A stretch of 64,000 nt of DNA from Methanococcoides methylutens MM1 (GTDB lineage Archaea > Halobacteriota > Methanosarcinia > Methanosarcinales > Methanosarcinaceae). The notes under the pieces are model-generated. The model had not been told where the DNA came from. It was given only the letters and a program-made list of their open reading frames with translations, and searched no databases. The stretch lies in assembly GCF_000970325.1 (NCBI RefSeq), contig NZ_CP009518.1, forward strand, positions 1,178,001-1,242,000, in the 5' to 3' direction. The position numbers and the translations under genes were made by a program. Below, piece after piece: positions 51,108 to 56,139 of the stretch. Each line of letters starts with the position of its first letter. The first letter of the stretch is position 1.

Positions 51108-51122
51108 TTGTTTGGTGGTAGT

Positions 51123-54100
51123 GTGAGAAGAGGAATAATAGAATTTAACAATATTAAGGATGGCAGTAAAGCATTTTTATGTCACAGTAAGTTTTGCAAA
51201 CTTTCCGGAATTGCAATATTATTAGTCATACTTGCACTTACCGGTGCAGCAACTGCTGCAACAATTAACATGGACGATGTCAATGATGCTTCGGGAACTA
51301 TAGATGAAGTATGTACACAGGCTCCAGTGAATCCTGAGTTTATAAAATATCAGATGAGAATGAATAATCAGCTGAAAATGAGAAGTTTTGAAATGAGCCC
51401 AGAGGGTCATAAATTGGGTTACATACCATCCCCTGTGGACCTATCACATATAGAGGAAAACGCTGTCATGGAAAGTGATAGCGAGGGATTTGGCACACTT
51501 GCCACCATCACGGAGACATACCCTTCATACTACGATCTCCGAGACCTAGATAAAGTTACATCTGTGAAAAATCAAGGAGCTGCTGGTTCTTGTTGGGCAC
51601 ACGCAACATATGCATCTCTTGAATCTTATCTGATAACCTCCGAGACACATGATTTCTCTGAGAACAATATGAAAAATCTCCTTAATAACTGGCCGAACAG
51701 CCCCTATCAGGAGAGATTTGATTTTGTGGAAGGTGGAAATGCCGAGATGTCAACAGCATATCTTGCTCGGTGGAGTGGTCCAATCGATGAATCTGATGAC
51801 CCATACAGTTCAGATTATGGAGAGTCACCTTCAGGTCTTTCTGAACAAAAACATGTTCAAGAGGTTTTGTGGCTTACAAGTATGGATGACATCAAAGATG
51901 CAGTAATGAACAATGGGGCAGTCCAAACATCATTTTACTGGGATAATGCATACTATAACGCTACAGACCATTCCTACTACTATGCTGGCTCAGCAAGTAT
52001 CAACCATGCAGTAGCTATTGTTGGATGGGATGACGATTTCACTTCCTCGGGATTTCCGGGAACAGGTGCATATATAATCAAGAACAGCTGGGGAACCAAC
52101 TGGGGCGACGGGGGGTATTTTTACCTATCATATTCTGACACATATGCTGGCGACTATGCGGTGATATTCACTGCAGAGGAAACAGATAACTACGACAGTG
52201 TGTACCAGTATGATCCATTAGGATGGGTCAGTAGCGCAGGGTACGGATCCACGACTGCATGGGGTGCCAATGTGTTCACTGCTGAAGCAGATGAAACATT
52301 AGAAGCCGTGAGCTTTTATACAACAGATATCGATACTCAATATGAAATTTATGTCTATCTGGATCCCATGACTGGAAGTCCCACCAACAGTGCCGGTGAA
52401 GTTGCGACAAAGAGCGGGACATTCTCTGAGGCAGGATATCATACAGTACACCTCGATTCAGATGTCCAGATAAGTTCAGGTCAGGATTTCTCAGTAGTGA
52501 TCAAGTTCACTACATCTAACGATAAATATCCCGTTGCAATGGAGAGGCCCTACTCTGACTACAGCAGTAAAGCAACTGCAAACGCCGGAGAAAGTTATAT
52601 AAGTTCGTCTGGTTCCACATGGAGTGATATTACAAGCACTTTTACCAATACAAATGTATGTATAAAGGCATTCACTTCATCCAGCATTAACGAGAATAAT
52701 TTTGCTCCTGTACTTGATGCAATAGGTGATAAAACTGTAGATGAACTTACAGAACTTACATTTACAGCTACTGCAGCTGATGATGATATTCCAGTTCAGA
52801 CTTTAACATTCAGTCTTGCAGGAGATGTACCTCAAGGTGCAGAAATCACAACCGACGGAGTATTCACATGGACACCTACAGAGGTGCAGGGACTAGAGTC
52901 TTACAACTTCGATGTAGTCGTATCTGATGGTGCACTTACTGACAGCGAGACAATAACCGTAACAGTTAACGAGATCAATGTCGCTCCTGTACTTGATGTA
53001 ATCGGTGATCAAACTGTAGAAAAGCTCGCAGAACTTACATTTACAGCAACTGCAACTGATGCTGATATACCAGTCCAGACATTAGAATTCAGTCTTGCAG
53101 GAACAGTACCTCAAGGTGCAGCAATCACACCTGCCGGAGTGTTCACATGGACACCTGCAGAGGAACAGGGACCAGATTCTTACAACTTCGATGTAGTTGT
53201 GTCCGATGGTGAACTAACAGACAGCGAGACCATAACAATAACAGTTAACGAGGTCAATGTTGCTCCCGTACTTGATACAATCGGTGATAAAACTGTAAAT
53301 GAACTTACAGAACTTACATTTACAGCAACAGCAACTGATTCTGATATTCCAGTTCAGGAATTAACATTCAGTCTTGCAGGAGATGTACCTCAAGGTGCAG
53401 AAATCACACCTGCCGGAGTGTTCACATGGACACCTACAGAGATGCAGGGACCAGCTTCTTACAACTTCGACGTAGTTGTATTTGATGGTGCACTTACAGA
53501 CAACGAGACCATAACAATAACAGTTGATGAGGTCAATGTTGCTCCCGTACTTGATACAATCGGTGATAAAACTGTAAATGAACTTACAGAACTTACATTT
53601 ACAGCAACAGCAACTGATTCTGATATTCCAGTTCAGGAATTAACATTCAGTCTTGCAGGAGATGTACCTCAAGGTGCAGAAATCACACCTGCCGGAGTGT
53701 TCACATGGACACCTACAGAGGAGCAGGGACCGGGTTCTTACAACTTCGATATAGTTGTATTTGATGGAATTGCTACTGATTCAGAAATCGTATTGATTGA
53801 TGTCAGCGAATCATCAAATCCCCCAATTGCTGATTTCACTTCAGACATAACAAGAGGGAAAGTACCTTTGACAGTCCAGTTCGTTGATCAATCATCCGGT
53901 GCAACCTCATGGTCATGGGACATTGATGGTGATGGTATTGAAGACAGTAATGCTGCAGATTTTAGTTATACATATACAACACCTGGAACTTATTCGGTCT
54001 CGTTAACAGTTACAAATTCAGATGGTGAAGATACTGAGACAAAATACGATTATGTTAAAGTACTCAGAAATCCCAAATATACTCCTGACACTCCCCCAAC

Positions 54101-54704
54101 CAACAATCCTCCAGTTGCTGATGCAGGCGGACCATACGCCGGCGATATTGGAGAAGAGATCACATTTGTCGGTTCTGGTTCATACGATACAGAGGGAACG
54201 ATCGCTTCCTATGAATGGGACTTTGGAGATGGAACTACTCCGTCAGTTTCTACACTTCCTAATACAACACACACATACACAGTTGGCAATATCTATACAG
54301 CAACACTTACAGTAACAGACAGCAGTGGTGTAACAGCTACAGATACTGTAGATGTAATGATTACTGACCCAAATGCAGTGGCAGGAGATATGTCTATTGA
54401 AAGTATTATACTTTCTACTTCCACCAAGCAAGCAGGTAAAAATTTCTTTGTCTCTGCTAATGCAGTCGTGAAGATATCAGACGGAATTGCTCCTGTTGCA
54501 GGTGCCACAGTTACTGGTCAGTGGAGCGGTGCTGCTAATGATATGGATACTGGAACAACCAATGCTGATGGGGAAATAACATTTACCTCAGATTCTGCAA
54601 AGTACACTGGTGATTCAATAACATTTTATTTCACAGTGAATGGTGTAACTCATCAGGAATATGTATGGGATGGTACACCTAAATCGGCACATATAGACTA
54701 TTAA
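51123..54704 (+). CDS. Secreted papain-like (C1) protease with He_PIG and PKD repeats
   Basis: A surface protease of about 1193 residues. With numbering from the upstream TTG at 51108: signal segment (about 30-50), propeptide (50-130), C1A peptidase domain (about 135-360) with Gln156, Cys162 (GSCWAHA), His300 (NHAVAIVGW) and Asn326 (KNSWGTNWGDGGY), a beta domain (about 370-520), four cadherin/He_PIG-like repeats of 93 residues (about 530-900), two PKD domains (about 905-985 and 1000-1085), and a final Ig-like domain. All catalytic residues are present, so it should be active outside the cell. The GTG at 51123 has a GGTGG site; the TTG has none. Confidence 0.9.
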   Translation: MRRGIIEFNNIKDGSKAFLCHSKFCKLSGIAILLVILALTGAATAATINMDDVNDASGTIDEVCTQAPVNPEFIKYQMRMNNQLKMRSFEMSPEGHKLGYIPSPVDLSHIEENAVMESDSEGFGTLATITETYPSYYDLRDLDKVTSVKNQGAAGSCWAHATYASLESYLITSETHDFSENNMKNLLNNWPNSPYQERFDFVEGGNAEMSTAYLARWSGPIDESDDPYSSDYGESPSGLSEQKHVQEVLWLTSMDDIKDAVMNNGAVQTSFYWDNAYYNATDHSYYYAGSASINHAVAIVGWDDDFTSSGFPGTGAYIIKNSWGTNWGDGGYFYLSYSDTYAGDYAVIFTAEETDNYDSVYQYDPLGWVSSAGYGSTTAWGANVFTAEADETLEAVSFYTTDIDTQYEIYVYLDPMTGSPTNSAGEVATKSGTFSEAGYHTVHLDSDVQISSGQDFSVVIKFTTSNDKYPVAMERPYSDYSSKATANAGESYISSSGSTWSDITSTFTNTNVCIKAFTSSSINENNFAPVLDAIGDKTVDELTELTFTATAADDDIPVQTLTFSLAGDVPQGAEITTDGVFTWTPTEVQGLESYNFDVVVSDGALTDSETITVTVNEINVAPVLDVIGDQTVEKLAELTFTATATDADIPVQTLEFSLAGTVPQGAAITPAGVFTWTPAEEQGPDSYNFDVVVSDGELTDSETITITVNEVNVAPVLDTIGDKTVNELTELTFTATATDSDIPVQELTFSLAGDVPQGAEITPAGVFTWTPTEMQGPASYNFDVVVFDGALTDNETITITVDEVNVAPVLDTIGDKTVNELTELTFTATATDSDIPVQELTFSLAGDVPQGAEITPAGVFTWTPTEEQGPGSYNFDIVVFDGIATDSEIVLIDVSESSNPPIADFTSDITRGKVPLTVQFVDQSSGATSWSWDIDGDGIEDSNAADFSYTYTTPGTYSVSLTVTNSDGEDTETKYDYVKVLRNPKYTPDTPPTNNPPVADAGGPYAGDIGEEITFVGSGSYDTEGTIASYEWDFGDGTTPSVSTLPNTTHTYTVGNIYTATLTVTDSSGVTATDTVDVMITDPNAVAGDMSIESIILSTSTKQAGKNFFVSANAVVKISDGIAPVAGATVTGQWSGAANDMDTGTTNADGEITFTSDSAKYTGDSITFYFTVNGVTHQEYVWDGTPKSAHIDY
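52700..53800 (+). repeat. Four 279-bp He_PIG repeats in the protease gene
   Basis: The unit encoding a 93-residue domain (beginning APVLDTIGDKTVNELTELTF) occurs four times. Copies three and four are almost identical in DNA (53240-53434 against 53519-53713, offset 279), so the last duplication or conversion is recent. Confidence 0.85.
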
Positions 54705-54871: not shown

Positions 54872-54948
54872 TGCTATTAAGAATAAATATAGTAATAGAT
54901 ATTTATTAACAGGATCAGAACTAATGTTAAATTATTCCGGTGATGAAT

Positions 54949-55230
54949 ATGGACGATCGTGAAAAACTAAAAGAAAAACTATATGGACTCGCTGTCAAGT
55001 ATGCTGAAAGGAAAGGGTACATGCTGAATCCTGATGAGGAAACGGTCAACGATGTGATCGATGGTGTTGCAGAGAACATCGAGGAATATGGCAAAAGATA
55101 TTGTCCATGCAGGTTCGTATCAGGTGATCCCGAAGAGGACAAGAAGATAATCTGCCCATGCATCTACATCGAAGATGAGATCGAGAATGATGGCATGTGC
55201 CATTGTGAACTGTTCTTTAAAGTAAATTAA
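54949..55230 (+). CDS. Ferredoxin-thioredoxin reductase catalytic-type protein
   Basis: A 93-residue protein of the FTR catalytic (beta) family with the CPC...CPC...CHC pattern (Cys52/54, Cys69/71, Cys84/86) that holds a [4Fe-4S] cluster next to a redox disulfide. The spacings (14 and 12 residues) differ from the plant enzyme (16 and 8), as is common in archaeal members. It should take electrons from ferredoxin and reduce a thioredoxin-like partner. No variable (alpha) chain gene is nearby; archaeal forms do without it. The ATG at 54949 is preferred over GTG/ATG six to nine bases earlier because GGTGAT sits at the right distance. Confidence 0.88.
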   Translation: MDDREKLKEKLYGLAVKYAERKGYMLNPDEETVNDVIDGVAENIEEYGKRYCPCRFVSGDPEEDKKIICPCIYIEDEIENDGMCHCELFFKVN

Positions 55231-55308: not shown

Positions 55309-55692
55309 ATGAAACATCCAAAGACCATCCGGAAGGGACTGGACTACATCATAGCAATGGATGCACCTGAGCTATCCCCGCTTGAAGTAAGGGAGTTGCT
55401 GCGTAAAACCGTAACAAAACGCTTTGATGTCATTGACCAGATAATGTCAGCCGCCAGAAAGGAAGGCCTTATAACTGACAAAGACGGCATGTGTCACTTC
55501 ACATACGAGGCACACGATCTGGAATTTTATAAACCCAGGATAATACACACAGAAGAGATCAACAACTGCAGGTGTTGTGGGCGGAGCATGAAAGAAAGCC
55601 ATTACATCGAATTGAGATCAGGAATGCTTGGTCCATATGGTTCTACCTGTGTTCGGAAGCTCTATCTGGACTATTTGTTCGGAGAAGAGTAA
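55309..55692 (+). CDS. Winged-helix-like protein with C-terminal zinc motif
   Basis: A 127-residue protein. Residues about 1-70 look like a helical DNA-binding-type domain (DVIDQIMSAARKEGLI). Residues 85-125 have a cysteine motif CRCCGRSM followed by LGPYGSTCVRKL, similar in style to the small zinc motif C-x2-CGR...GP..C seen in DUF6011-type proteins. The exact family is not recognised. It follows the FTR-like gene by 78 bases and could be co-transcribed. Confidence 0.65.
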   Translation: MKHPKTIRKGLDYIIAMDAPELSPLEVRELLRKTVTKRFDVIDQIMSAARKEGLITDKDGMCHFTYEAHDLEFYKPRIIHTEEINNCRCCGRSMKESHYIELRSGMLGPYGSTCVRKLYLDYLFGEE

Positions 55693-55763: not shown

Positions 55764-56123
55764 TCATCGCTTCAGATCAGAACGGACACGGTCTTTAAGT
55801 TCTTGTTGTTTTCCAGCATTCCATCCGCTGACATTGGAGATATATCCTGTTACCCGTGAAAGCTGGTGGACACTGTGGTTCATGCAATCCGGGCACATTG
55901 GTTGGTCACATACTGGACACTGTGCAACATTTGCAACGGTATCATGAGCACATTTTACCCCGTTAATTGCTACCCATACATGAACCGGACATGGATTATT
56001 TTCATCCGTTTTGATAGGCTGTCCGTTATTGAACTCATTGCACCATTCTTTACATCTCTCAACGAATTTATCCTTTGGAAGTGCAAACAGTTCCTCTGCT
56101 GACATTTCTTGTCTCTCTGACAT
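55764..56123 (-). CDS. Stand-alone glycyl-radical / zinc domain resembling the NrdD C terminus
   Basis: A 119-residue protein. Residues 66-114 match the C-terminal end of anaerobic (class III) ribonucleotide reductase: four cysteines (Cys69, Cys72, Cys77, Cys80) as in the NrdD zinc site, then SRVTGYIS with Gly93 at the glycyl-radical position, then SGWNAGKQQELKDRVR, the conserved NrdD ending. Residues 1-65 are not from NrdD and include extra cysteines (Cys24, Cys28, Cys45, Cys58). The large catalytic barrel is absent, and no NrdG activase gene is in the window. It could be a spare radical domain that repairs an oxygen-damaged reductase, as GrcA does for pyruvate formate-lyase. A GGAG site and a TATA box (about 56140-56150) precede it. 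Confidence 0.75.
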   Translation of the reverse strand: MSERQEMSAEELFALPKDKFVERCKEWCNEFNNGQPIKTDENNPCPVHVWVAINGVKCAHDTVANVAQCPVCDQPMCPDCMNHSVHQLSRVTGYISNVSGWNAGKQQELKDRVRSDLKR

Positions 56124-56139
56124 GTTCTATATCTCCTGT

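Follow-up and report, generated by a model that had tools for sequence, protein, structure and literature searches.

Can the radical-bearing end of a class III ribonucleotide reductase (RNR) serve its enzyme when it is encoded as a separate small protein? The question is raised by a 119-residue protein of Methanococcoides methylutens MM1, encoded within the stretch of 64,000 nucleotides analysed here (the window), which ends like the class III reductase NrdD. From sequence comparison, we consider it fairly probable that this protein is the glycyl-radical domain (GRD) of class III RNR in detached form, which would supply the radical in trans to an NrdD barrel, and that in this organism it would most likely be a spare part.

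A stand-alone glycyl-radical domain

A sequence-only reading of this locus had recognized the four cysteines Cys69, Cys72, Cys77 and Cys80, the motif RVTGY with Gly93, and the ending WNAGK, all of which lie at the residues that it gave. It had also proposed that the protein matches the C-terminus of NrdD and lacks the catalytic barrel. Residues 65 to 113 match the Pfam family NRDD (PF13597) with 47 bits (E = 2e-12, cut-off 26.2 bits) over profile positions 507 to 560 of 562, and no match to positions 1 to 506 was found in the protein. TIGR02487 is matched only over its last 39 positions (542 to 580 of 581), with 46 bits compared to a cut-off of 326. Since the profile match is confined to the NrdD C-terminus, the protein carries the radical end of NrdD and no barrel, and both proposals hold. 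The analogy with GrcA, also drawn by that reading, does not extend to the profiles, as the protein has no PF01228 match. Among solved structures the best match is P. copri NrdD (8p23, E = 2.5e-8), whose RITGY aligns with RVTGY, and the 795-residue NrdD of the same genome is 62% identical over 39 residues.

Two features had been read differently. The cysteine site was called NrdD-type, which is true of the second CPxC, which aligns with NrdD, but not of the first pair, which stands four rather than about 12 residues before it. The N-terminal half with its four cysteines was called new, but it is common to the family rather than unique to this gene, and Cys45 alone of the four is invariant. In an AlphaFold model (m84102f15573f; mean pLDDT 72), this part has predicted helices at residues 9-13, 17-31 and 46-54, with pLDDT of about 90 at residues 11-40. 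The radical loop is poorly predicted, and a Foldseek search of the PDB with this model, whose GRD is of low confidence, gave no match.

Table 1. Features of the locus, in positions of the window
Feature	Position	Strand	Basis
FtrB-like protein, 96 aa (PF02943)	54940-55230	+	profile
DUF5830 protein	55309-55692	+	profile
Stand-alone NrdD-type glycyl-radical-domain gene, 119 aa and stop; start codon ATG	55764-56123	-	ORF, profile matches, orthologues, purifying selection
Residues 67-119, glycyl-radical domain homologous to the class III RNR C-terminus	55767-55925	-	PF13597 507-560; TIGR02487 542-580; slowest-evolving part
RVTGY, residues 90-94; Gly93 codon (55845-55847), aligned with the NrdD radical glycine	55842-55856	-	alignments
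CPVCDQPMCPDC, residues 69-80, compact four-Cys site C-x2-C-x4-C-x2-C, signature of the stand-alone family	55884-55919	-	C69, C72, C77 and C80 invariant
Residues 1-66, N-terminal part with Cys24, 28, 45 and 58	55926-56123	-	model m84102f15573f and alignment
Shine-Dalgarno AGGAG of the radical-domain gene	56133-56137	-	sequence; kept across the genus

The gene has copies in eight of the ten other Methanococcoides genomes and, sporadically, in other members of the order. Within the genus dN/dS is 0.09-0.14, which together with the orthologues indicates that the ORF is not a chance one, and the same ratio rules out a fragment or pseudogene in the window. In pairs at middle distance, pN is about 0.03 in residues 67-119 versus about 0.10 in residues 1-66. 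Invariant among 16 relatives are C45, C69, C72, C77, C80, H83, R90, T92, G93, Y94, G100 and W101; Gly93, on which the sequence-only reading depended, is kept in every aligned relative. The region upstream, including the Shine-Dalgarno sequence, is conserved across the genus. The gene is nevertheless dispensable, because two of the ten relatives (G004 and G009) are without it and a copy in another genus (L014 in G013) is frameshifted after GYLSTVAGW and probably a pseudogene. A minimal copy of about 57 residues in a further genome (L017 in G078) has no N-terminal part, and its fourth Cys is replaced by Ser.

Neighbours and candidate partners in the host genome

The ferredoxin-thioredoxin-reductase-like (FtrB-like) gene had been pointed out as lying 0.5 kb away, which is so in the window genome and in one close relative, but elsewhere in the genus it is far away. 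Within the genus, the radical-domain gene stands alone at no fewer than four different, unrelated chromosomal sites. As the neighbourhood is not conserved in the genus, a functional link to the FtrB-like and DUF5830 genes is ruled out, and the FtrB-like neighbour is incidental. Some other Methanococcoides genomes keep these two as a pair, with the radical-domain gene elsewhere. The window also encodes (51108-54704, + strand) a 1198-residue papain-family protease with a lectin-like domain, Ig-like repeats and PKD domains, which is probably secreted.

The host genome, a single contig of 2.39 Mb, had been suggested as the place to look for a full NrdD, and it holds two complete ones (L001 and L002), each covering PF13597 1-562 and ending in its own RVTGY. 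An NrdG-type activase (NrdG2) adjoins one of the two nrdD genes. Searches of this genome for enzymes of the pyruvate formate-lyase type (PF01228 and PF02901) and for class I/II RNR (PF02867) found none, and the controls were positive. With NrdD as the only reductase detected and no enzyme of the pyruvate formate-lyase type, NrdD is the only plausible partner, and we conclude that it almost certainly is the partner of the 119-residue protein. The genome thus has both a stand-alone GRD and complete glycyl radical enzymes, the pattern of a spare part, and not the barrel without a GRD that would mark a subunit of a split RNR, as both NrdDs are full-length.

A split class III RNR, viral copies and descent

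Among 394 surveyed genomes of the phylum, 74 from six families of another class of methanogens, probably the Methanomicrobiales, each have a single short ORF that belongs to the family. In all 21 genomes of that class that were tested, the NrdD match to PF13597 breaks off at about position 510-516, and the separate short ORF takes in about 506-562. The split cases include loci L197, L201 and L189 and genomes G222, G149 and G259. For one such pair, TIGR02487 is covered by the barrel at 1-529 and by the domain protein at 523-580. The barrels extend a few residues beyond GYFAFTRDLTV and stop immediately ahead of the zinc/radical domain, and their tails vary; they retain the finger-loop CYQCC motif, and most have a glutaredoxin-like gene upstream. 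The domain gene is unlinked to the barrel and lies, at the loci looked at, between pyrF and cbiZ. NrdG2 is found in all split-class genomes examined, and the split-class genomes also have class II RNR.

The GRD gene is present in 173 of the 199 genomes of the split class. Genus g88 (G219, G242, G285 and others) has neither barrel nor GRD in any of 12 genomes, all of them 90% complete or better; the class II RNR found in the split class may have allowed this genus to lose class III. In four drafts with completeness of 79-93%, a barrel is present and no GRD was detected. Judged by gene content, the GRD gene is apparently the only radical source for the NrdD of this class and an apparent core subunit there. 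The open-access literature, to which our search was confined, yielded no description of a split NrdD or of a stand-alone NrdD radical domain. As a side observation, NrdD ORFs of 1200-1700 residues in five genomes (G101, G165, G446, G180 and G119; L211-L217) match the family in pieces and probably contain inteins, and among class II RNR ORFs, too, some reach about 1100 residues.

The same gene is carried by contigs of IMG/VR, where the ten records examined, several of them fragments, have the domain only and no barrel. Their marker genes include a tape-measure protein, terminase large subunits, baseplate proteins, Sak4 and primases, a diversity which indicates that several unrelated viruses are involved. 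Two viral proteins (L163 and L162) resemble that of the split class, and two others (L114 and L115) are of the Methanococcoides type. Further copies lie near a Prim-Pol gene (G066) and near genes for Dam and a replication protein (G054). One viral copy (L116, 5890-6213) reads RVTGS with an apparent insertion after the glycine and is possibly degenerate. Two contigs filed under bacteria appear to be misbinned: a Bacteroidetes contig (L038, QMOR01000201.1) has a tailed-virus tail module and is as long as the IMG/VR contig L160, and a Ratteibacteria contig (L039, JAQURI010000002.1) encodes a PCNA N-terminal domain. By tblastn, no locus in 50,697 phage records (384 with matches) reached 80% coverage of the query, and the matches listed are annotated full NrdDs or unannotated; in plasmids, too, no locus reached 80% coverage.

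A tree of 53 radical domains (65 columns, midpoint root) is split by a single branch (96/88) into 20 ends of full-length NrdDs and 33 stand-alone copies, and the compact CPxC-x4-CPxC signature divides the same two groups. In the full-length NrdDs of relatives, the CPxC is preceded at about 12 residues by a Cys or CxxC, and the compact spacing is absent. The 119-residue protein belongs to the stand-alone lineage by both its signature and its branch. Like the GRD of class III RNR (NrdD; PF13597, TIGR02487), it has RVTGY, a CPxC just before it and a WN.GK..E..DR tail, but it differs from full NrdD in having no barrel, a shorter spacing of the Cys pairs, a new N-terminal part and this separate lineage. 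The Methanococcoides clade (98/93) groups with two viruses and the split-class clade, through a weakly supported branch. Both the tree and the Cys spacing disfavour a recent duplication of the host NrdD end, and the copy of this genus probably did not arise from its own NrdD. Within the family, transfers between hosts and viruses have taken place.

Proposed role and alternatives

We propose that an NrdG-type radical-SAM activase would install the radical on Gly93 of the detached GRD, and that the charged GRD would then complete the active site of an NrdD barrel encoded by another gene. The window protein may bind the host NrdD as the split-class GRD would bind its barrel and, in this organism, would most likely restore NrdD cut at its glycine by oxygen. 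The sequence-only reading had considered such a role in trans, and it is well supported by inference, as the same family appears to be the only GRD source for a naturally split NrdD. Because the window organism has complete NrdDs, the trans role there would be an extrapolation, and because the Cys spacing is unlike that of full NrdD, docking may not be identical. Since the host NrdDs keep their own intact GRDs, replacement of a damaged one is the likeliest role, and by analogy with known cases the protein probably serves NrdD as a spare part.

The precedents are YfiD and phage T4 Y06I, which are spare parts of pyruvate formate-lyase; validation is confined to that enzyme, and the study of these proteins raised the question of spare parts for other glycyl radical enzymes, which it considered possible (PMC8683613). 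Like GrcA/YfiD and Y06I, the 119-residue protein is small, consists of a GRD and an additional N-terminal half without a barrel, occurs in both hosts and viruses, and has the full enzyme in the same genome (PMC8683613). Unlike them, it is archaeal, derived from NrdD rather than pyruvate formate-lyase and without a PF01228 match, and its N-terminal part is predicted to be helical whereas theirs is disordered; rescue here is proposed by analogy, and the analogy to GrcA is apt but unproven. The split class II RNR NrdJa/NrdJb (mentioned in PMC9669993) likewise consists of two chains, one with the barrel and one that has a Cys-rich domain at its C-terminus, but it belongs to the B12-dependent class and has no glycyl radical in the Cys-rich chain. 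The split class III RNR shares with the window protein a homologous GRD and the same CPxC-x4-CPxC; its GRD is apparently the only radical source for its NrdD, in contrast to the window genome with its full-length NrdDs.

Other accounts of the gene differ in how well they fit. It is possible, though we have our doubts, that it is a virus-derived auxiliary gene that serves mainly to keep host NrdD working during viral replication, and that the chromosomal copies in the genus, captured or domesticated, are remnants that matter little to the host. The ten viral records, the solitary position at unrelated sites in the genus, the patchy presence with a frameshifted copy in G013, and the copies near Prim-Pol, Dam and replication genes all speak for this, whereas strong purifying selection and a conserved upstream region across the genus, and its fixation in another class, where it is apparently a core subunit, speak against it. 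That the protein is a decoy or regulator, binding the NrdD barrel or NrdG to lower RNR activity and, for example, limit viral DNA synthesis, seems unlikely. Such a protein would bind the same surfaces, and the host already has complete NrdDs, but viruses carry the GRD too, a simple blocker would not need the radical glycine and the whole loop that are kept, and if the split RNR works at all, its GRD has to be productive.

The eight cysteines and the compact CPxC-x4-CPxC could also be those of a zinc-ribbon or redox protein in which the NrdD end has only a structural use and no radical chemistry takes place. We consider this quite improbable, as Arg90, Thr92, Gly93, Tyr94, Gly100 and Trp101 do not vary and the GRD evolves more slowly than the rest of the protein. 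That the protein carries a radical for some glycyl radical enzyme besides NrdD, an idea for which nothing speaks beyond its mention in the sequence-only reading, is very hard to credit when PF02901 and PF01228 are absent from the genome and both searches were positive in control genomes.

We therefore retain the reading of a detached GRD that would act on NrdD, probably as a spare part. If true, this would be a second spare-part case, for a DNA-precursor enzyme, in a genome with no other RNR class detected. The stronger result is the split class III RNR, whose radical domain is common to hosts and viruses. In a wider view, which we hold tentatively and judge a little short of evenly balanced, the class III RNR GRD of methanogens is detachable: an obligate separate gene in one class, a spare in other hosts, and brought alone by unrelated viruses to take over or repair the host barrel. 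The split NrdD of a whole methanogen class would offer a two-protein system for studying radical installation, docking and domain exchange, and the viral copies suggest that viruses can steer the nucleotide supply of their hosts with one small part.
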